Positions 11,065 through 30,595 of a stretch of 35,150 bases of DNA are shown piece after piece. The stretch's first letter is position 1, and every line of letters starts with the position of its first letter. A program made the position numbers and the translations under genes. A model generated the notes under the pieces. It saw only the letters and a program-made list of their open reading frames with translations, was not told the origin of the DNA and did not search any database. The stretch is from Actinomycetota bacterium. GTDB lineage: Bacteria; Actinomycetota; Thermoleophilia; Miltoncostaeales; Miltoncostaeaceae. The stretch is taken from the NCBI GenBank assembly GCA_005792725.1, contig SXQZ01000142.1:1-35150 (forward strand), written 5' to 3'.

Positions 11065-12087
11065 GTGGCACCCGAGATCGCCGACACCATGCCGCGTACG
11101 GGCGGGTTCCCCGCCGTCCGGCACCGTCGGCTGAGAACCACCGAGGGCATGCGGCGCCTCGTGCGCGAGACGGCGCCGCGGCCATCGCAGTTCGTGCTGC
11201 CGATGTTCGCCGTCGCGGGCGAGGGCGTGCGCCAGCCGGTGGATGCCCTGCCGGGCATTGCCCGCCTCTCCCCCGACCTCCTGGTCGAGGAGGCCCGCGC
11301 TGCCCGCGACGCCGGGGTCGGAGGCGTGCTGCTCTTCGGGGTCACCGACCTCAAGGATGCCGACGGGTCGTCGGCCCATGCCGCGGACGGGGTGGTGCAG
11401 GAGGCCGTGCGGGCGCTGAAGACCGCGCTGCCCGATCTGGTGGTCATCACCGATGTCTGCCTGTGCGGCTATACCGACCACGGCCACTGCGGCCTGCTCG
11501 GCGGCGGCGGCGAGGTGGACAACGATGCGTCGCTCGCGGTACTCGCGCAGACCGCCGTGAGTCACGCACGGGCCGGAGCCGACGTGGTGGCCCCCAGCGA
11601 CATGATGGACGGCCGGGTGGCGGCGATCCGCTCCGCCCTCGATGAGGCCGGATACGAGGACGTGGCGATCATGTCCTACTCCGCGAAATACGCATCCGCG
11701 TTCTACGGGCCCTTCCGCGAGGCGGCGGGCTCGGCACCGGGCCACGGCGACCGCCGCGGCTACCAGATGGACCCGCCCAACGCGCGCGAGGCGGTGCGCG
11801 AGGTGCGCGAGGACGAAGCCGAGGGCGCCGACCTGGTGATGGTGAAGCCTGCCGCCACCTACCTCGACGTGATCCGGGCCGTGCGCGAGGCCACCGGACT
11901 GCCCGTGGCCGCCTATCACGTGAGTGGTGAGTACGCGATGGTGAAGGCGGCCGCGGAGCGCGGATGGCTCGACGAGCGCAGCGCCATGCTCGAGGTTCTC
12001 ACGGCCGTCGTGCGGGCGGGCGCCGACATCGTCATCACCTATGCGGCCGTGGACGCGGCGCGGTGGATCCACGAGGGGGAGCGATGA
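11065..12087 (+). CDS. hemB: Delta-aminolevulinic acid dehydratase (porphobilinogen synthase)
   Basis: DVCLCGYTDHGHCG, VAPSDMMDGRVAAIR, SYSAKYASAFYGPFREAAGS, LVMVKPA, AYHVSGEYAM. Confidence 0.96.
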   Translation: MAPEIADTMPRTGGFPAVRHRRLRTTEGMRRLVRETAPRPSQFVLPMFAVAGEGVRQPVDALPGIARLSPDLLVEEARAARDAGVGGVLLFGVTDLKDADGSSAHAADGVVQEAVRALKTALPDLVVITDVCLCGYTDHGHCGLLGGGGEVDNDASLAVLAQTAVSHARAGADVVAPSDMMDGRVAAIRSALDEAGYEDVAIMSYSAKYASAFYGPFREAAGSAPGHGDRRGYQMDPPNAREAVREVREDEAEGADLVMVKPAATYLDVIRAVREATGLPVAAYHVSGEYAMVKAAAERGWLDERSAMLEVLTAVVRAGADIVITYAAVDAARWIHEGER

Positions 12088-13166
12088 CGACCGCGGCCGC
12101 CCGGCCCACGCACCACCGGCCCGACGAGGTGGACAAGCGCCTGCTCAATGCCGTGCAGGCGGGCATCCCGCTCACCCGACGGCCCTACCTGGGAATCGCC
12201 GAGGCCGTCGGGATCGACGAGGATGAGGTGCTGCGCCGTATGGGCGTGCTGAAGGACGCCGCGATCATCCGCCAGGTGTCCGCCATCTTCGACACCCGCG
12301 CGCTCGGCTACGAGAGCACGCTGGTGGCGGCTGCCTACCCCGATGACCGCCTCTTCGAGGCGGCCACGGTGGTCAACGGGCACCCGGGCGTGAGCCACAA
12401 TTACCGCCGCACGCACCGCTTCAACATGTGGTTCACACTGGCCGTGGAGCCGGGTGCACGCATGTCCCTGGAGGACACCCTCGACGTGCTGACCCGCGAG
12501 ACCGGCGCCCTGTCCATGCGCATCCTGCCGACGCTCACGCTCTACAAGATCAACGTGCAGCTCGACATGACGGGGGCCAGTGGAACCACCGCACGCGCCG
12601 AGCCGGTGGCACCGCCCCGGCGCGGTGACGGTCATCCGCCCTCCGACGAGGACCGTGCGGCCATCCTCATCCTCCAGGAGGATCTGCCGCTGGTGCGCGA
12701 GCCGTTTGATCTCTGGGCGCAGGCGGCGGGCTGGGACGTGGACCACCTGCTCGCGAAGGCCGCGGAGATGAAGGAGCGCACGGTGATGCGGCGGTTCGCC
12801 GGCGTGCTGAACCACCGCCGGGCCGGGTTCGGTGCCAACGGCATGGCCGTGTGGAAGGTGCCCACCGACCGGATTGACGACTTCGGCAGCCGCATGGCCA
12901 CGTTCACCTCGGTGTCGCACTGCTACCGCCGGCCGACCTACGACGACTGGCCCTACAGCCTCTTCACGATGGTGCACGCGCGATCACGGGACGCCTGCGA
13001 CGAGACCATCGCCGCGCTGGCGGGCGAGGTCGGTCTGGGTCCCGACGACTACTCGGTCCTGTACTCGACCTTCGAGTTCAAGAAGATCCGCCTGCGCTAC
13101 TACTCGCCCGAGTACCGCGCCTGGGAGGACATCGCACGGGCGGGATCATCCCTGCCGACGGCGTGA
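12084..13166 (+). CDS. Fused Lrp/AsnC-like siroheme decarboxylase (AhbA/AhbB or NirDL type)
   Basis: Two tandem HTH+AsnC-like halves: ...VIRQVSAIFDTRALGYESTLVAA...VSHNYRRTHRFNMWFTL and ...VMRRFAGVLNHRRAGFGANGMAVW...VSHCYRRPTYDDWPYSLFTMVHA; lies between hemB and hemL. Confidence 0.82.
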   Translation: MTTAAARPTHHRPDEVDKRLLNAVQAGIPLTRRPYLGIAEAVGIDEDEVLRRMGVLKDAAIIRQVSAIFDTRALGYESTLVAAAYPDDRLFEAATVVNGHPGVSHNYRRTHRFNMWFTLAVEPGARMSLEDTLDVLTRETGALSMRILPTLTLYKINVQLDMTGASGTTARAEPVAPPRRGDGHPPSDEDRAAILILQEDLPLVREPFDLWAQAAGWDVDHLLAKAAEMKERTVMRRFAGVLNHRRAGFGANGMAVWKVPTDRIDDFGSRMATFTSVSHCYRRPTYDDWPYSLFTMVHARSRDACDETIAALAGEVGLGPDDYSVLYSTFEFKKIRLRYYSPEYRAWEDIARAGSSLPTA

Positions 13167-14449
13167 GCACGGTGACCGGCGCTCCCCGCGGCGCCCGCAG
13201 CGCCGAACTGTTCGACCGGGCCCGACGCGTACTGGTGGGCGGCGTCAACTCGCCCGTGCGCGCCATGCGCGGCATCGGGCGCGACCCGCTGTTCATTGAC
13301 CGCGCCGAGGGTGCCCACGTCTGGGACGCCGACGGCAACCGCTACGTGGACTTCCTGGCCTCGTGGGGGCCCGCCATCACCGGGCACGCCGACCCGGTGG
13401 TGATCGGTGCCCTGCGCGAGGCCCTTGCGCGGGGCACCTCGTACGGGGCACCCACCGAGCGGGAGGTGCGGTTCGCCGAGGTGGTCACCGGGGCGTTCCC
13501 CTCGATCGAGCGGCTGCGCATGACCTCGTCGGGCAGCGAGGCCGTGATGGGCGCCGTGCGCCTCGCGCGCGCCGCCACCGGACGCGAGGCCATCGTCAAG
13601 GCCGAGGGCGGCTACCACGGGGCCATTGACGGCCTTCTGGCCCAGGCCGGGAGCGGGGCGACGACCCTCGGCGTACCCACCAGCCCGGGGGTCACGGCGG
13701 GCGCGACCGCCGCGACCCGCCTGGTGCCCTACAACGACCTGGCGGCTGCCGAGGCAGCGCTCGACGGCGCGGCGGCCATCATCATCGAACCGGTCGCCGG
13801 GAACATGGGCGTGGTGCCCCCCGCCCCCGGGTACCTCGCGGGGCTGCGCGCTGCCTGCGACCGCACGGGGGCGCTGCTGATCCTCGACGAGGTCATCACG
13901 GGGTTCCGTGTGGCGCGCGGCGGGGCGCAGGAGCGGTTCGGCGTGCAGGCCGACCTCACGTGCCTCGGCAAGGTCATCGGCGGCGGCCTGCCCGTGGGTG
14001 CCTTCGGCGGTCGCGCCGACGTGATGGCCGAACTCGCGCCCGAGGGCCCGTGCTACCAGGCCGGCACCCTCTCGGGGAACCCGCTGGCCACCGCCGCGGG
14101 CCTCGCCGTCCTCGCGCGGCTCGCCGCGCCCGGTACCTACGAGCGGCTTGACGAGGCGGGTGCCCGGCTCGAGGAGGTCATCCGCGGCAGTGGCGCGCCG
14201 GTCACGATCAACCGGGTCGGCTCGATGCTCACGGCGTTCCTCACCGATACCGAGGTGACCGACTACGCGGGTGCCACCGCCTGCGACACGGACCTGTATG
14301 CAGCCATCGCGCGCGGCCTGCTGGCCCGCGGGGTGTACCCGCCGCCGTCGCAGTTCGAGGCCTGGTTCGTGAGCACCGTGCACGGCGAGGCCGAGTTCGA
14401 TGCCACGGCCCGCGCCCTGGCCGGGGCCCTTGAGGAGGCCGGCGCATGA
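13163..14449 (+). CDS. hemL: Glutamate-1-semialdehyde 2,1-aminomutase
   Basis: VGGVNSPVRAMRGIG, TSSGSEAVMGAVRLARAATGR, LILDEVITGFRVARGGAQ, LGKVIGGGLPVGAFGG. Confidence 0.95.
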   Translation: MSTVTGAPRGARSAELFDRARRVLVGGVNSPVRAMRGIGRDPLFIDRAEGAHVWDADGNRYVDFLASWGPAITGHADPVVIGALREALARGTSYGAPTEREVRFAEVVTGAFPSIERLRMTSSGSEAVMGAVRLARAATGREAIVKAEGGYHGAIDGLLAQAGSGATTLGVPTSPGVTAGATAATRLVPYNDLAAAEAALDGAAAIIIEPVAGNMGVVPPAPGYLAGLRAACDRTGALLILDEVITGFRVARGGAQERFGVQADLTCLGKVIGGGLPVGAFGGRADVMAELAPEGPCYQAGTLSGNPLATAAGLAVLARLAAPGTYERLDEAGARLEEVIRGSGAPVTINRVGSMLTAFLTDTEVTDYAGATACDTDLYAAIARGLLARGVYPPPSQFEAWFVSTVHGEAEFDATARALAGALEEAGA

Positions 14450-14970
14450 TGATCCCCGGGGCGGACCGGGTCAGCGAGGTACTCGCCGAGCAGCCGGCCC
14501 TCGCCGGGCGCACGGTGGACGCCGAGGAGGTTCTCGTCCCGATGATCAGCCCGCCCCTTCCCCGCGGGAACGCCCTGGGGCTCGAGTTGATCCTCGAGGG
14601 GTTCCTGCTGCACCACGGACGCCCGCGCCACGTGGACCACGTGCCGATGGGCGCGGCGGTGCTGGCCGGCGACTACTGCTACGCGCAGGGGCTGGTGCGC
14701 ATCGCGGCCACCGGCGACCTTGCGATGGTGGAGGCCCTCGGCGACCTCGTGGCGCTGTCGGCGGCGGCGATGGCCGCCGGGCGCGAACAGGACCTCGTCC
14801 CGCGGTGGCGGTCCACCGCGGCGGCCATTTCGGGGGAGTCGGGCCCGGACGGGGCGGAGGTCGCGCGCACCGCGCGATCGGCACTGCGCGCGGGCGTGCC
14901 CGGGCCCATCCACGAACTCGCCGCAGGGCTGCCTCCGGCCCCGGCGCTTCAGGAGGCCCTGCCGCGATGA
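14446..14970 (+). CDS. Unknown helical protein, possibly isoprenyl-synthase-like without DDxxD
   Basis: ATGA overlaps on both sides; GDYCYAQGLVRIAATGDLAMVEALGDLVALSAAAMAAG resembles the GDFLFARAFAELTRLGSPAAVSALAEASLDLA helix of the in-window polyprenyl synthase. Confidence 0.6.
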   Translation: MMIPGADRVSEVLAEQPALAGRTVDAEEVLVPMISPPLPRGNALGLELILEGFLLHHGRPRHVDHVPMGAAVLAGDYCYAQGLVRIAATGDLAMVEALGDLVALSAAAMAAGREQDLVPRWRSTAAAISGESGPDGAEVARTARSALRAGVPGPIHELAAGLPPAPALQEALPR

Positions 14971-16412
14971 GGGACCTGCGCGAGTGGATCCGGGTGCTCC
15001 GTGACAGCGGCGAGCTGGTCGAGGTGGATGCCGAGGTGGACCCGTACCTCGAGATCACCGAGATCTCCGACCGTGTGATGAAGGCCGGGGGGCCCGCGGT
15101 GCTGTTCCGCAACGTCAGGGGCTCCGCCCTGCCGGTCCTGATCAACCAGTTCGGCAGCGAGCGGCGCATGGCGCGGGGTCTGGGCGGGGAGGACCTTGAC
15201 CAGATCGCCGCGCGCATCGCCCACATCGCCGAGATGCAGCCGCCTCAGGGCCTCATGGACAAGGTGAAGGCGCTCGGCACACTCAAGGACCTCGCCTCAC
15301 TGGGGACGAAGTCGGTGCGGTCGGGACCCTGCCAGGAGGTCGTGCTGCGCGGTGACGAGGTGGACCTCGACCTCCTGCCCATCCTCACCTGCTGGCCCGG
15401 TGATGGGGGGCCCTTCGTCACGCTGCCCCTGGTGTTCAGCCACGACCCGCACACGGGGTCGCGTAACTGCGGCATGTACCGCGTGCAGAAGGTCGACCGG
15501 AACACCTGCATCATGCACTGGCAGGTGCACAAGGACGGGCGGCGGCACCTGCTGAACTCGGATGGCCGGGTGCCCGTGGCCGTGGCGATCGGCACCGACC
15601 CGGCGGTGACCTACTCGGCCACCGCGCCGCTGCCGCCGGCCCTCGACGAGATGATGTTCGCGGGGTTCCTGCGCGGCGAGCGGGTCGAGATGGTGCAGGC
15701 CGTGAGTCAGGACATCGAGGTGCCGGCCCACGCCGAGGTGGTGCTGGAGGGCTATGTGGATGCCACCGACATCCGCGACGAGGGCCCGTTCGGTGACCAC
15801 ACGGGCTTCTACACGCCGGTGGACCGCTACCCCGCGTTCCACGTGACCGCCCTCACCATGCGCCGCGATGCCATCTACTCCACCACCATCGTCGGCATGC
15901 CCCCCATGGAGGACTACTGGCTGGGCAAGGCCACCGAGCGGCTGTTCCTGCCGCTCATCCGCATGACGCTGCCCGACCTGGTGGACATGAACCTGCCGCT
16001 CGAGGGCATCTTCCACAACTGCGCGATCGTGTCGGTCCGCAAGCGCTACCCGGGCCATGCGAAGACGCTGATCAACGCGGTGTGGGGCCTGGGGCTGCTG
16101 TCGCTCAGCCGGTGCGTGATCGTGGTGGACGCCGACATCGACGTGCACGATGTGTCGCAGGTGGCCTTCCGTGCGTTCTCCAACGTTGATGCGAAGCGGG
16201 ACGTCCTCATCGTGGACGGCCCCGTGGATGCCCTCGACCACGCGGCCCCCCACTTCGCCTACGGGGCCAAGATCGGCTTCGACGCCACGGCCAAGTGGGT
16301 GGGCGAGGGTGAGGTGCGGCCGTGGCCCGACGAAATCCGCATGAGCGACGAGGTCCGCGAGCGCGTGAGCGACCGGTGGGCGGAGTTCGGCATCCCGGTG
16401 CCACCGGCGTGA
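14967..16412 (+). CDS. UbiD-family decarboxylase (candidate menaquinone decarboxylase MqnL)
   Basis: MRDLREWIRVLRDSGELVEVDAEVDPYLEITEISDRVMK, PILTCWPGDGGPFVTLPLVFS, GMYRVQKVDRNTCIMHWQVHKDGRRH. Confidence 0.92.
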   Translation: MRDLREWIRVLRDSGELVEVDAEVDPYLEITEISDRVMKAGGPAVLFRNVRGSALPVLINQFGSERRMARGLGGEDLDQIAARIAHIAEMQPPQGLMDKVKALGTLKDLASLGTKSVRSGPCQEVVLRGDEVDLDLLPILTCWPGDGGPFVTLPLVFSHDPHTGSRNCGMYRVQKVDRNTCIMHWQVHKDGRRHLLNSDGRVPVAVAIGTDPAVTYSATAPLPPALDEMMFAGFLRGERVEMVQAVSQDIEVPAHAEVVLEGYVDATDIRDEGPFGDHTGFYTPVDRYPAFHVTALTMRRDAIYSTTIVGMPPMEDYWLGKATERLFLPLIRMTLPDLVDMNLPLEGIFHNCAIVSVRKRYPGHAKTLINAVWGLGLLSLSRCVIVVDADIDVHDVSQVAFRAFSNVDAKRDVLIVDGPVDALDHAAPHFAYGAKIGFDATAKWVGEGEVRPWPDEIRMSDEVRERVSDRWAEFGIPVPPA

Positions 16413-19119: not shown

Positions 19120-19157
19120 GCCGCCTTCCTGCCATGCGGGGCTACCATCACAGGGCC

Positions 19158-19796
19158 ATGCGGATCTTCCTGGGGGTAACCGGGGCCAGCGGCGCCCTCT
19201 ACGGCGGGCGCGCCCTCGCCGCGCTCACCGACGCCGGTCACCACGTGGGGCTGTGCGTGTCGGACGCGGGCGCCCGGGTGATCAGCCACGAGGTGCTGGG
19301 GGAGGGTCCCCGACCCGCCGATTACCACGACGTGGCCGAGCGCTTCGCCGCCATGTTCGCCCGGCCGGCCGGTGCGGTTGACCTGCTCAGCGCCGACGAC
19401 ATCGCATCCTCATTCGCCTCGGGCTCCGCGGGCGCACGCCAGGCCCTGGTGGCCCCGTGCTCCACGTCCACCCTGGGCCACATCGCCCACGGCACGGGCG
19501 GCAACCTCATCCACCGGGTCGCCGAGGTGATGCTGAAGGAGCGCGGAGGGCTGATCATCATCCCGCGCGAGACGCCCGTGTCGCTGATCCAGTTGAGGAA
19601 CATGGTCGCGGTCACCGAGGCCGGTGGCGTGGTGCTGCCTGCCTCGCCCGGCCTGTACACCCTGCCGGCGACCGTTGAGGACATGGTGGACTTCGTCGTC
19701 GGCAAGGCCCTGGACCTGATGGGCGTCGAGCACGCCCTCTTTCCCCGCTGGGGGCAGCCCGACGTGCCGGCCGGGACCCTGGGGGACCACCCGTGA
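19158..19796 (+). CDS. ubiX: UbiX-type flavin prenyltransferase (candidate MqnM)
   Basis: MRIFLGVTGASGALYG, VAPCSTSTLGHIAHGTGGNLIHR, IIIPRETPVSLIQLRNM. Confidence 0.94.
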   Translation: MRIFLGVTGASGALYGGRALAALTDAGHHVGLCVSDAGARVISHEVLGEGPRPADYHDVAERFAAMFARPAGAVDLLSADDIASSFASGSAGARQALVAPCSTSTLGHIAHGTGGNLIHRVAEVMLKERGGLIIIPRETPVSLIQLRNMVAVTEAGGVVLPASPGLYTLPATVEDMVDFVVGKALDLMGVEHALFPRWGQPDVPAGTLGDHP

Positions 19797-20485
19797 GTAC
19801 GGCGTCGCCCGACCGGGCGGTCTTCGACCGGATCGCACCGCGCTACGACCTGGTGAGTGGCCTCATGACCCTGGGCATGGGGGACCGCTGGCGCCGGGCC
19901 GCGGCCGAGGCCGCCGACGCAACCGCCGGCCAGCGGGTGCTCGATGCCTACACGGGCACGGGGGACCTGGCGCTGCTGCTGGCCGACCGCGTGACGCGTC
20001 TCGGCGAGGTGGTGGGCGTGGACCTGTCACCGGAGATGATCGCGCGGGCGCGGCTGAAGGCCACGGCCTCCGGACGCGAATGCCGCTTCGAGGTCGCCGA
20101 CTGCACCGCCCTACCCTTCGCCTCCGATTGGTTCGATGCCGCCACCGCGTCGGGCGGGCTGAGGAGCCTGGCCGACCCGGCACCCGGCGTGGCCGAGTTG
20201 GTGCGGGTCGTGCGCCCCGGCGGGCGCATGGTGATCCTCGAGGTCACGCCCCCCGCCCGGCTCCGTGGCGCACACGCACGGGTGCTGCGCTTCACCACCC
20301 CGCTGCTCGGCGGGGCGCTCGGCGGTGACCCGGATGCTTTCCGGCACATGGTCGCGACCATCGGGCACGTGCCCGCCCCGCAGGACATGGCGGCCATCAT
20401 GGGTGATGCCGGCCTGCTCGGGGTCGGCTGGCGCACATTCGCCGGGGGCATCGCGACGCTCCACCACGGCGTGGTGGCACCATGA
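19793..20485 (+). CDS. UbiE/MenG-type quinone C-methyltransferase
   Basis: FDRIAPRYDLVSGLMTLGMGDRWRR, DAYTGTGDLALLLAD, VVGVDLSPEMIARAR, VRPGGRMVILEVT. Confidence 0.9.
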   Translation: MSTASPDRAVFDRIAPRYDLVSGLMTLGMGDRWRRAAAEAADATAGQRVLDAYTGTGDLALLLADRVTRLGEVVGVDLSPEMIARARLKATASGRECRFEVADCTALPFASDWFDAATASGGLRSLADPAPGVAELVRVVRPGGRMVILEVTPPARLRGAHARVLRFTTPLLGGALGGDPDAFRHMVATIGHVPAPQDMAAIMGDAGLLGVGWRTFAGGIATLHHGVVAP

Positions 20486-21453
20486 CCACCGCCCCGCCCG
20501 TCCACGATGTCGTCCAGCCGTTCCAGCCATGGATGGCCGAGTGCGAGGACATGCTCGGGCGCTTCGCCGGCGGACACGTGCCCGAGGTATCGGGGCCCGC
20601 CACGGACACCCTCGTGGCGGGTGGAAAGCGGGTGCGCCCCGTGATGCTGTTCTGCTGTTCGTCACGCCGTGAGGATGACCGGCAGGCCCTGGTCAGCGCC
20701 GCGGCCGCCGTGGAGCTCGTCCACATGGCCACTCTGGTGCATGACGACCTCATTGACGGCGCCACCACCCGCCGGGGCCGGCCGACGGTGGCACGCGCCC
20801 ACGGAGCCGATGCCGCCATCAACGTGGGCGACTTCCTGTTCGCGCGGGCCTTCGCGGAGCTCACGCGCCTCGGGTCGCCCGCCGCCGTCAGCGCCCTGGC
20901 CGAGGCGTCCCTCGACCTGGCCCGGGGCGAGATGGACCAGCAGCGGGCGGCCGGCGACCTAGCGCTGCCCGTGGATGCCTACATGGCACGCTGCCAGCGC
21001 AAGACGGGGGCGCTCTTCGCCGTGGCGTGCCGCCTGGGCGCGCTGCTGTCGGGGGCGTCGGACGAGGCCCAGCGGAGGCTGGCGGCATTCGGCACCCACG
21101 TGGGCGTGGCGTTCCAGATCCTCGATGACATCCTCGACCTTGCGGGCGCCCCAGCCGACACGGGCAAGCGCCGCGGCACCGACATCCTCTGCGGCACCGT
21201 GACGCTGCCGCAAATCCTTGCGATGGAGGTGGACCCGGATCTCGGCGCCGAGATCCGGCGCGTCGCCGCCGGCGAGGACGGGCTTGGCACCCTGTGCGAC
21301 CGCCTGGCGGCGCATCCGGGTACCGCGGCCGCGCGGCAGCGGGCCATCGGCGAGGTGGAGATGGCCTTGGAGTCGCTCGACGGCGACATCGGTGGCGCCG
21401 ATGCGGCCGCCCTGCGCATCATCGCCGCGGGCGTGGTGGACCGGTTCGCATGA
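20482..21453 (+). CDS. Polyprenyl diphosphate synthase
   Basis: GGKRVRPVM, HDDLIDGATTRRGRPTV, GDFLFARAF, FQILDDILDLAG. Confidence 0.94.
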   Translation: MTTAPPVHDVVQPFQPWMAECEDMLGRFAGGHVPEVSGPATDTLVAGGKRVRPVMLFCCSSRREDDRQALVSAAAAVELVHMATLVHDDLIDGATTRRGRPTVARAHGADAAINVGDFLFARAFAELTRLGSPAAVSALAEASLDLARGEMDQQRAAGDLALPVDAYMARCQRKTGALFAVACRLGALLSGASDEAQRRLAAFGTHVGVAFQILDDILDLAGAPADTGKRRGTDILCGTVTLPQILAMEVDPDLGAEIRRVAAGEDGLGTLCDRLAAHPGTAAARQRAIGEVEMALESLDGDIGGADAAALRIIAAGVVDRFA

Positions 21454-21911
21454 CCCGCGAGGAGATCGTCGCCATGCTCGATGCCCGCGACCCGCTGGCC
21501 GCCGCGAAGGGCCTGCCGACGCCGGGCGAGGTCGGCTGGCGGCGTGGGCCGGCCGGCGACGAGGGCGTGGCGGCACTGCGCTACGGCGCAGGCACCACCA
21601 CCGGCCAGATCGCCGACCGCCTGCTCGAGATCGCCGGATGGGGATCCGGCGTGCGTGCCGTGCAGCTGGTGCCCGGGCCGGACACGGCGGGACGCCCCGG
21701 GTCGTGGGGCACGGAGGATCTCCTCGTCACCGCGGTCACCCGGCGCGTGCTGCCCGACGTGGCGATCCGCCCCGACTGGCAGGCGCTCGGCGGGCCCGCG
21801 TGCCAGGTGGCGGTGTCATTCGGCGCGGACGAGTGGGTCATCCCGGAGGACGACGACGCCGACCCCGACCGCCTGGCCGCGGCCGTGGGCGCGAGGGCGG
21901 TGGCCCGGTGA
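21450..21911 (+). CDS. Small protein resembling the C-terminal part of MqnE/MqnC/CofH-type radical SAM enzymes, no CxxxCxxC
   Basis: LRYGAGTTTGQIADRLLEIAG..GVRAVQLVPG...TEDLLVTAVTRRVLPDVAIRPDWQALGGPACQVAVSFGADEW parallels the corresponding region of the family; 4-nt overlaps with neighbours. Confidence 0.6.
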   Translation: MTREEIVAMLDARDPLAAAKGLPTPGEVGWRRGPAGDEGVAALRYGAGTTTGQIADRLLEIAGWGSGVRAVQLVPGPDTAGRPGSWGTEDLLVTAVTRRVLPDVAIRPDWQALGGPACQVAVSFGADEWVIPEDDDADPDRLAAAVGARAVAR

Positions 21912-22720
21912 GCGATCTCCGGGTGGGGCGCATCAGCGCACTCAACATGTTCCCCGTCTACCACCACCTCGAGCGGGCCCACCTGCCGGGGGTGGCGTTC
22001 ACCGACGGCCTGCCGGCGGCGCTGAACGCGGCGGTGCTGGGTGGGGCGCTCGATGTGTCGGCGGTCTCGAGCATCACATACGCGCGCAACGCCGGGCGCC
22101 TGCGCCTGCTACCCGTGGGCTGCATTGCCTGCGAGGGGGCGGTGGGCTCCATCCGCCTCATGTCGCCCGTGCCGCTCGACCGGGTGCAACGCGTGGCCGT
22201 GACCCCGCACAGCGCGAGCAGCGTCACGCTGCTGCGCGTCCTGCTGGGTCCGGGGGTGCCCTTCCGCGCGCTGGCGTCCGACGACGATGCCCCATCGGCG
22301 CTCGCCGGCGGCGAGGCCGTGCTGCTCATCGCCGATGCCGCCCTGCTCGCGCACCGCGACGGCCTCGCCCCGTACTCCATCGATCTGGGTGAGGCCTGGC
22401 AGGAACGCACCGGGCTGCCGATGGTCTTCGCCGTGTGGGTGGCGAGGAGCGAGGTGGCCGGCACCCGCACCGCGGACGTTGCGGCGCTCAGCACCGTGAT
22501 CAGCGAGGCCCGCACGGCGTTCGAGACGGACCCCGACGCGGTCGCGGCCGCCGCCGCGTGGCGCTTCCCATTCGACGAGGCATACGTCCGGGAGTATCTG
22601 CAGCGCCTGCGGTATGGGTTCGGCGACGCCGAGCGCGCCGGATTGCTGCGGTTCCTCGATCTGGCGCAGGATGCCGGTGAGCTCGGCGAGGTACCCGCCC
22701 TCGGAGCCCTGGCGGCATGA
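21908..22720 (+). CDS. mqnA: Chorismate dehydratase MqnA (futalosine pathway)
   Basis: VGRISALNMFPVYHHLE, LNAAVLGGALDVSAVSSITYARNAGRLRLLPVGCIACEGAVGSIRL, VFAVWVARSEV. Confidence 0.9.
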   Translation: MSDLRVGRISALNMFPVYHHLERAHLPGVAFTDGLPAALNAAVLGGALDVSAVSSITYARNAGRLRLLPVGCIACEGAVGSIRLMSPVPLDRVQRVAVTPHSASSVTLLRVLLGPGVPFRALASDDDAPSALAGGEAVLLIADAALLAHRDGLAPYSIDLGEAWQERTGLPMVFAVWVARSEVAGTRTADVAALSTVISEARTAFETDPDAVAAAAAWRFPFDEAYVREYLQRLRYGFGDAERAGLLRFLDLAQDAGELGEVPALGALAA

Positions 22721-23808
22721 GCACCATCGCACCCACCCGCCACCACGCGGTCATCGACGGCCTCGACGCCGGCCGGCGCCTCGATGCCGAGGGCGCCCGG
22801 GTGCTCCTGGACTCACACGATGTGGTGGCCGTCGCGGCGGCCGCCCGGCGGGCGCGCGACCGGGTGACCAACCCGGGCGAGGTCACGTTCGTCATCGACC
22901 GCAATGTGAACTACACGAACTTCTGCGTCACCGATTGCGACTTCTGCGCCTTCTACCGCCACCCGCGCGACCCCGGGGGCTACGTGCTGGGCAAGCCCGT
23001 GATCTTCCGCAAGATCGAGGAGACCCTCGCCCTTGGCGGCACGGCGTTGCTCATGCAGGGCGGGCACCACCCCAACCTGCGCATCGAGTGGTACGAGGAC
23101 CTCTTCCGCGACATCAAGGCCCGCTACCCGATCCACCTGCACGCCCTGTCGCCCAGCGAGGTGCTGCACATCGCCCACTACTCGCGCCTCGATCTGGGGG
23201 ACACCCTCGGCCGCCTCATCCGCGCCGGGCTCGACTCCATTCCCGGAGGCGGAGCCGAGATCCTCGTGGACCGGGTGCGCGATGTCATCGCCCCGCGCAA
23301 GACGATGACCGCGGAGTGGATCGGGGTCATGCGCGAGGCACACCTGCGGGGCCTGCCCACCAGCGCCACCATGATGTACGGCACGATTGACACCGTGGAT
23401 GACCGCGTGGAGCACCTGCGCGTGCTGCGCGACCTGCAGGACGAAACGGGGGGCTTCCGGGCCTTCGCGTGCTGGTCGTACCAGCCCGGTGGGGGCTCGG
23501 CGCGCGGCGATGACCACCTCGGCCTCACGGCGGCCGACTACCTGATGATGAACGCGGTCGCGCGCCTCTACCTCGACAACATCCCCCACATCCAGTCCTC
23601 GTGGGTCACCCAGGGGCTGCGCATCGGGATGCTGGCGCTCGAAGCCGGATGCGACGACATGGGCTCCATCATGATCGAGGAGAATGTGGTGCGCGCCGCC
23701 GGCACGCAGTTCACCCTCGACACCCCGCGCATGGTGGAGGCCATCGAGGCCACCGGCCGCCGCGCGGTCCAGCGCGACACCCTCTACCGCGTGGTGCGGC
23801 GCTTCTAG
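22717..23808 (+). CDS. mqnC: Cyclic dehypoxanthine futalosine synthase MqnC (radical SAM)
   Basis: NVNYTNFCVTDCDFCAFYR (CxxxCxxC), GGTALLMQGGHHPNLRIEWYEDLF, MMYGTIDTVDDRVEHL, IQSSWVTQGLRIGMLALEAGCDDMGSIMIEENVV. Confidence 0.95.
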   Translation: MSTIAPTRHHAVIDGLDAGRRLDAEGARVLLDSHDVVAVAAAARRARDRVTNPGEVTFVIDRNVNYTNFCVTDCDFCAFYRHPRDPGGYVLGKPVIFRKIEETLALGGTALLMQGGHHPNLRIEWYEDLFRDIKARYPIHLHALSPSEVLHIAHYSRLDLGDTLGRLIRAGLDSIPGGGAEILVDRVRDVIAPRKTMTAEWIGVMREAHLRGLPTSATMMYGTIDTVDDRVEHLRVLRDLQDETGGFRAFACWSYQPGGGSARGDDHLGLTAADYLMMNAVARLYLDNIPHIQSSWVTQGLRIGMLALEAGCDDMGSIMIEENVVRAAGTQFTLDTPRMVEAIEATGRRAVQRDTLYRVVRRF

Positions 23809-28532: not shown

Positions 28533-29828
28533 GTGCCCGTGGAGGGCCCGGTCGTCCGGGACGGGTGCGTGCTGGTTCGCGGCGGCACCATTGTGGCCGT
28601 TGGCCGCGAGCGCGACCTGCCGCCCTGCGACGGGGGTCCGGTCACCGACCTCGGCGACGCGATCCTCATCCCCGGGCTGGTGGATGCCCACTGCCATCTC
28701 GAGTGGGGCCTCATGGGCGGCCTGGTGTCCGATGCACGCTTCGGCGAGTGGCTGGGCGCGTTCGTGCAGCGCACGGCCGGCGTCACGCCGGTTGATCGCG
28801 AGCACGCGGCCCGCTGGGCCGCGCTGACGGCGCTCCGCAGCGGCACCACGACCCTCGCCGATTCCGGCCCCAGCGGCTTCGGGGTGGCCGCGGCCGGGGA
28901 TACGGGTCTGCGGGCCATCGTCCACATGGAGATCTTCGGCCGCGACACCGGCTCTGCCGCGCGCGACAAGGTGGTGCGCCATGGCGAGGCGCTGCTGCAG
29001 GCCCGCGACACGGCCGGCCCGCGCGTGCGCGTGGGCGTGTCACCCCACTCGCCCTACACGGTCGGGCCCGCGCTCTGGAGCGAGGTGCTGGCCGACCCGA
29101 TCCTCGGCGCGGGCTCGGTGGCCACGCACATCGCCGAGTCGCCCGACGAGGTCATGCTGCTCGACGAGGGCATCGGCCCGCTGGCCGAGGCCATCCGCGT
29201 GGTGGCCCGCGATCCGGCCGAGTGGCCGGGCGGCGGACCCGGCGTGGTCTCACGCCTCGGGGCCGCGGGCGCCCTGACCGCAGGTCTCATCGCCGCCCAC
29301 TGCGTGCAGGTTGACCCCGACGACGTGCTCCTCCTCGCCGATCACGGCGTGCGCGTGGCCCACTGCCCGCACTCGAACGCACGCCTCGAATGCGGCGACG
29401 CACCGGTGGAATTGCTTCACCTGCTGGGGGTTCCGGTGGGGCTCGGAACCGACAGCCCCGCGAGCGCCGGCGCCTACGACCTGCGCGACGAGGCCCGCTG
29501 GGCGGCCGAGGCCATGGCCCGCCGGGGGCAGCGGCCCGTGGCCGCCGACCTGCTGGCGATGGCCACCATCGGCTCCGCGCGGGTCCTCGGAATGGATGCC
29601 GACGTGGGATCGCTCGTCGCCGGCAAGCGCGCCGATCTGGTCGCCATCCGGCCGTTCGCCGGGGCTCCGGTGGAGGCCGACCCGTCCCTCGTCGTGCTCG
29701 ATCCCCGCTCACGCGTGATCGCCTCGTGGATTGATGGCGAGCCGGTGCTGGGGCCCGACGGCCCCGCCCGCCTTGACGTGGCGGGCATCGTGGCCGATGC
29801 GCGCGAGGCCCGGGACCGGATCATGTAG
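28533..29828 (+). CDS. Amidohydrolase of the TrzN/aminofutalosine deaminase type (start probably upstream, near 28509)
   Basis: IPGLVDAHCHLEWGLMGGLV, GVSPHSPYTV, IAAHCVQV, VAHCPHSNARLECGDAPVELLHLLGVPVGLGTDSPAS. Confidence 0.85.
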   Translation: MPVEGPVVRDGCVLVRGGTIVAVGRERDLPPCDGGPVTDLGDAILIPGLVDAHCHLEWGLMGGLVSDARFGEWLGAFVQRTAGVTPVDREHAARWAALTALRSGTTTLADSGPSGFGVAAAGDTGLRAIVHMEIFGRDTGSAARDKVVRHGEALLQARDTAGPRVRVGVSPHSPYTVGPALWSEVLADPILGAGSVATHIAESPDEVMLLDEGIGPLAEAIRVVARDPAEWPGGGPGVVSRLGAAGALTAGLIAAHCVQVDPDDVLLLADHGVRVAHCPHSNARLECGDAPVELLHLLGVPVGLGTDSPASAGAYDLRDEARWAAEAMARRGQRPVAADLLAMATIGSARVLGMDADVGSLVAGKRADLVAIRPFAGAPVEADPSLVVLDPRSRVIASWIDGEPVLGPDGPARLDVAGIVADAREARDRIM

Positions 29829-30522: not shown

Positions 30523-30595
30523 GGGCCGTTAGCTCAGCTGGTAGAGCAGGGGACTCTTAATCCCAAGGTCGCAGGTTCGATCCCTGCACGGCCCA
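30523..30595 (+). tRNA. tRNA-Lys (anticodon CTT)
   Basis: gggccgt/acggccc acceptor stem, ttagctcagctggtagagc D-arm, loop ctCTTaa, gcaggttcgatccctgc T-arm, discriminator A; CCA not encoded. Confidence 0.96.

Follow-up and report, generated by a model that had tools for sequence, protein, structure and literature searches.

A gene derived from the C-terminal half of MqnE is maintained beside mqnA in the menaquinone operon of Miltoncostaeaceae

The window analysed here is a 35,150-nucleotide stretch of a contig from an actinomycetotal genome of the family Miltoncostaeaceae (order Miltoncostaeales, class Thermoleophilia). On its forward strand lies the gene run ubiX-ubiE-pps-orfX-mqnA-mqnC, with a menaquinone UbiD-type decarboxylase gene and Rieske/cytochrome b genes upstream. 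The features of the run, and those within orfX that are discussed below, are as follows.

19134..19796, + strand: ubiX, flavin prenyltransferase
19793..20485, + strand: ubiE/menG, methyltransferase
20482..21453, + strand: pps, polyprenyl diphosphate synthase (Pfam PF00348)
21450..21911, + strand: orfX, MqnE-derived C-terminal half-barrel protein, 153 aa, no radical-SAM motif
21450..21453, + strand: overlap of pps stop and orfX start, ATGA
21450..21554, + strand: orfX N-terminal segment, about residues 1-35, conserved in the family, with no detectable MqnE homology
21555..21908, + strand: orfX segment homologous to the C-terminal half of the MqnE barrel, about residues 36-153, from profile and structure comparison
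21582..21587, + strand: invariant Tyr45-Gly46, corresponding to MqnE YGH, the MqnE-invariant His being lost
21693..21719, + strand: R-P-G-S-W-G-x-E-D, residues 82-90, Ser85 and Trp86 being specific to orfX
21765..21779, + strand: I-R-P-x-W, residues 106-110, with Arg107 in place of an MqnE-invariant Lys and Trp110 inherited
21834..21845, + strand: W-x-I-P, residues 129-132, at the site of the invariant GT in MqnE GT-x-x-EE, the EE being lost
21908..21911, + strand: overlap of orfX stop and mqnA GTG start, GTGA
21908..22720, + strand: mqnA, chorismate dehydratase (Pfam PF02621)
22717..23808, + strand: mqnC, cyclic dehypoxanthinyl futalosine synthase (TIGR03699, 438.5 bits, over the cut-off)

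Translation confirmed orfX as a real reading frame of 153 codons whose product has a single cysteine and, as had been read from the sequence at the outset, lacks CxxxCxxC; the four-base overlaps with the polyprenyl synthase gene and mqnA, noted at the same time, are likewise present as ATGA and GTGA. Nearly every locus of the window's genus has such an overlap at either end of orfX; most of the other genera separate orfX from mqnA by a short gap instead.

Several other features of the window were recorded. An amidohydrolase gene (28533-29828, + strand), about 5 kb from mqnC, matches the aminofutalosine deaminase family in part (PRK08418, 105 bits against a cut-off of 320) and might encode the deaminase of the futalosine pathway. 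The match of the UbiD-type decarboxylase (14400-16412, + strand; TIGR03701) does not begin before residue 196; the ~190 residues ahead of it represent either an extension without a match or a wrongly placed start, and they overlap another reading frame at 14446-14970. A single frame at 11964-13166 (+ strand) fuses both siroheme decarboxylase subunits, AhbA at residues 57-202 and AhbB at 234-379, each scoring over its own cut-off, and a tRNA-Lys (CTT) gene lies at 30523-30595 (+ strand).

Taken alone, the window protein matches no Pfam family and, within NCBIfam, only TIGR00423 at E 0.13. A profile built from 33 orthologs, by comparison, aligned with MqnE (aminofutalosine synthase) at an hhalign score of 105.8 (Prob 99.3), the maximum among 40 column-shuffled profiles being 11.1 and the score of the reversed profile 3.5. 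The same profile scored 64.0 against MqnC, and in hmmsearch its sole sequence match in the PDB was MqnE 6xi9 (E 6e-9). The homology of orfX is therefore with the C-terminal half of MqnE, and not with MqnC in particular. The original prediction, that the protein resembles the region following the radical-SAM part of futalosine-pathway enzymes, is thus borne out far beyond chance; the parallel it drew was with the MqnC of the window, and here it needs correcting, since the closest relative is MqnE. The homology extends from the 'HRAAH-x-x-G' and 'YG' motifs to the C-terminal end, whereas the first 35-40 residues show none with MqnE (score 4.8; shuffled mean 3.9, maximum 10.6). In the window's genus, orfX lacks a segment around HRAAHAAGRPSEA that is present in other genera. 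TIGR03700, the MqnE model (cut-off 434.55), does not match the window protein, and its best ortholog, at E 6.7e-13, falls far under the cut-off; the CofH/MqnC C-terminal region (PF19288) is matched by 14 of 31 orthologs at E <=1 (best 9e-7), but not by the window protein itself, and most orthologs match it weakly or not at all. Searches of Pfam and NCBIfam assigned orfX to no further known family and showed no catalytic domain in it.

Structure prediction agreed with the profile comparison. AlphaFold2 models of the window protein (pLDDT 93.3, pTM 0.90) and of a long-form ortholog (L072; pLDDT 94.9, pTM 0.91) both had MqnE 6xig/6xi9 as their top Foldseek hits (prob 1.0, TMq 0.60-0.68); for the long form, MqnE was found at E 1e-7 with TMq up to 0.68 and the next family at E 7e-3. 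The predicted alternation of strands and helices superposes on the C-terminal half of MqnE, as expected of a TIM-type half-barrel, and the model is, as far as prediction goes, that half of the MqnE barrel.

Compared with MqnE (TIGR03700; PDB 6xi9 and 6xig, from Pedobacter heparinus), orfX is alike in its C-terminal-half profile, its predicted fold and its slot before mqnA, and it shares the residues YG, R98, W110, G114, Q119 and F-G. It differs in length (153-189 aa against about 360) and in lacking the radical-SAM core, that is, strands 1-4 and the CxxxCxxC cysteines of the 4Fe-4S cluster, which are missing from the window protein and from the ortholog sequences shown. With neither cluster cysteines nor the SAM half, radical chemistry by orfX is excluded. 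MqnC, whose gene lies in the same operon, has a paralogous C-terminal half but matches orfX more weakly and is a full radical-SAM enzyme. Among (beta-alpha)4 half-barrels, such as the HisF halves, stand-alone TIM-type halves are laboratory constructs or inferred ancestors; orfX, also a stand-alone half, seems to be a natural one retained as a gene in its own right.

When 61 related genomes were searched in full, orfX orthologs turned up in 18 of the 20 that belong to the window's genus (g1, the window's own genome counted) and in all other sampled genus groups of Miltoncostaeaceae except g8. Neither the absence from all relatives nor the unrelated fold that would have counted against the original prediction is therefore seen. 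The two g1 genomes without orfX are incomplete (G002, 82%; G004, 69%) and have a single MqnE-type match each, and the operon is probably missing from these assemblies. Orthologs in a single-contig genome (G030) and a three-contig genome (G137) show that the gene is not a binning artefact. Across 399 genomes of the class, all strong matches (E below 1e-50) lay inside the family; among the matches listed outside it, most were frames at least as long as MqnE and covered in their C-terminal part. Scanning 84,980 species genomes gave 34 loci; the more informative of their titles name Miltoncostaeales, Miltoncostaeaceae or Thermoleophilia, others being generic or seemingly mislabelled. Three records carrying the titles Bifidobacterium breve or Acidobacteria contain contigs that belong to this Miltoncostaeales genus (L134, L141 and L133, which match G005:C1, G014:C39 and G013:C128, respectively, in length) and look mislabelled.

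In 33 family loci orfX, 153-189 aa long, lies between pps and mqnA, so that orthologs at the same position beside mqnA, the search for which had been proposed at the outset, do exist; in the two g8 genomes mqnA directly follows pps and orfX is gone. In other families of the class (f2, f3 and f8; L091-L093) the same slot, with pps upstream, is filled by full-length mqnE, the order in L092 and L093 being ubiX-ubiE-pps-mqnE-mqnA-mqnC, and the order mqnE-mqnA-mqnC recurs in L087-L090, L094 and L095; sister orders of Miltoncostaeales have mqnE itself where orfX stands. Since g8 is nested inside the family in a tree of operon proteins, a single origin of orfX, no later than the base of Miltoncostaeaceae, was followed by its loss in g8, where it is evidently not essential. 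Its origin from MqnE is well supported, and synteny argues for descent from an in-operon mqnE copy. In a tree of the C-terminal half the orfX stem branch measures 4.8 changes per site, a length at which the tree does not separate an operon mqnE from a duplicate of the family MqnE as the exact ancestral branch; grouping orfX with the family MqnE was not rejected (p 0.61), and placing orfX and every MqnE of the class in one clade was marginally rejected (p 0.04).

Away from the operon, genomes of the family, g8 included, encode an MqnE-type protein of full length, which in the window's genome lies at G000:C166:4326-5426 (L169; L096:2986-4086), with TIGR03700 as the best NCBIfam model at 392 bits. 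All sampled family genomes stay under the TIGR03700 cut-off (best 418 bits of 434.55), and automatic annotation may consequently fail to name the protein, so that MqnE may be reported missing. In the tree the family MqnE forms a separate deep branch outside the class MqnE clade. In the window's genus (L096-L109) MqnE carries a 6-residue insertion in the loop before the FQAFIPL strand. The insertion falls at the loop homologous to the shortened site of orfX and on the same stem, a single coincidence, and MqnE of a sister genus (G028) is of intermediate length.

The suggestion that orfX is maintained rather than decaying stands. All 33 reading frames are open and intact, and dN/dS, among the pairs listed with the window sequence, is 0.22-0.36 within the genus, as compared with 0.21-0.29 for mqnA and 0.13-0.18 for mqnC; orfX is under purifying selection like mqnA. 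Twenty-one residues are invariant across the family. Some were inherited from MqnE (YG, R98, W110, G114, Q119, G125 and others) and some are new (S85, W86, P102, R107, W129 and P132); three positions are invariant in both sets yet swapped, D to P102, K to R107 and T to P132. Other residues that never vary in the C-terminal half of MqnE (the YGH His, the DN and K ahead of the W helix, and GT-x-x-EE) are not retained, the His having become A, D or S and the EE being lost. Judged from the sequences, this pattern of replacement is one of changed function and not of decay. Given the selection, the confident fold and the clade-specific invariants, orfX is a maintained, diverged half-barrel pseudoenzyme.

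What such a protein might do was considered against its surroundings. By its genomic context OrfX may be a component of the menaquinone (futalosine) pathway. Mirror-tree rate covariation of orfX was highest with mqnA (partial r 0.43, 0.26 and 0.63), within the range of other pathway gene pairs and open to local rates shared by adjacent genes, so that it gives a weak hint of MqnA as partner; with mqnE it was near zero (0.06, 0.02 and 0.07). MqnE takes up the product of MqnA as its substrate. We envisage that in the ancestor of Miltoncostaeaceae the in-operon mqnE lost its radical-SAM half, its C-terminal half-barrel being kept as an independent protein, and that catalysis would be carried out by the divergent full-length MqnE encoded elsewhere. 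OrfX, translated together with MqnA, would then most likely serve the early futalosine pathway in a non-catalytic, accessory capacity, and may bind MqnA or hold its product, stabilizing the intermediate or handing it on. This reading of OrfX as a neofunctionalized mqnE remnant acting at the MqnA step builds on the homology, the synteny, the missing catalytic core, the selection and the single origin with one loss described above, to which we add, by inference, an accessory function, a partnership with MqnA and the handling of an intermediate. A role at this step is favoured because of co-translation with mqnA, descent from MqnE and a covariation that is strongest, though not exceptional, with mqnA; as a whole we hold the reading tentatively, at somewhat short of an even chance. 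Its most specific form, in which a radical-SAM enzyme was cut in two in nature and its substrate half alone retained, as a pseudoenzyme and dedicated non-catalytic carrier or chaperone passing the MqnA product to the relocated MqnE, is distinctly unlikely. A role for orfX as stand-in for a lost nucleosidase step finds no support, since almost every genome of the family encodes PF01048 proteins.

OrfX could, alternatively, bind a small molecule, a futalosine intermediate or some other ligand, in a remodelled pocket, as a sensor or a new enzyme and independently of any protein partner. The stretches Y45-G46, P75 to D90, R107 to W110 and P132 to D138 contain invariants that follow the strand ends, on which side 12 of the 21 invariants fall when ~7 are expected by length, and the three swapped positions fit a pocket turned to new use. 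Mean conservation, however, is equal on both faces (difference in mean information 0.02, reached by 56 of 126 shifts), and conservation that is not focused on one face points out neither a pocket nor an interface; with the YGH His and EE motif of MqnE also lost and the database searches giving no other catalytic domain, we regard a ligand-binding role as unlikely, if worth serious thought. As a half-barrel derived from MqnE, OrfX might instead be a structural subunit that pairs with MqnE, MqnC, CofH or itself and completes or caps a barrel, for example as a homodimer. The MqnE insertion and the orfX shortening at homologous loops on the same stem would suit such pairing, but they amount to one event, the MqnE gene lies outside the operon and covariation with mqnE is about zero (0.02-0.07), which makes a subunit role rather improbable.

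That OrfX is a passive relic, kept because its start and stop overlaps carry translational coupling from pps to mqnA, accords with the four-base junctions of the window's genus and, in our accounting, with g8 having pps and mqnA without it. A dN/dS well below 1, the 21 family-wide invariants, the confident compact predicted fold and the short gap in place of an overlap at the orfX-mqnA junction of most other genera all speak against this, and we consider it very unlikely. An unrelated small protein with a chance resemblance, to which the failure of the window protein alone to hit any Pfam family might have pointed, can be rejected as next to impossible on the hhalign profile score and the Foldseek result taken together, with profile, structure and synteny all converging on MqnE.

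The gene does not figure in the titles and abstracts found by literature searches on Miltoncostaea, the Thermoleophilia futalosine pathway, the MqnE structure or radical-SAM pseudoenzymes, and neither MqnE nor Miltoncostaea occurs in the main text of a quinone survey (PMC13386864). For orfX, the ancestral enzyme, the slot it occupied, the enzyme that replaced it and one later loss are all readable from genomes, so that the way in which half of an enzyme turned into something else becomes directly testable. The joining of halves is the generally assumed route by which barrel enzymes arose; to our knowledge, natural cases of the reverse, with half of an enzyme released and retained as a separate gene, are rare. 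Across an entire bacterial family, orfX also marks a part of the menaquinone operon that calls for explanation, and our results suggest that a leftover half of MqnE has there been put to a new use.
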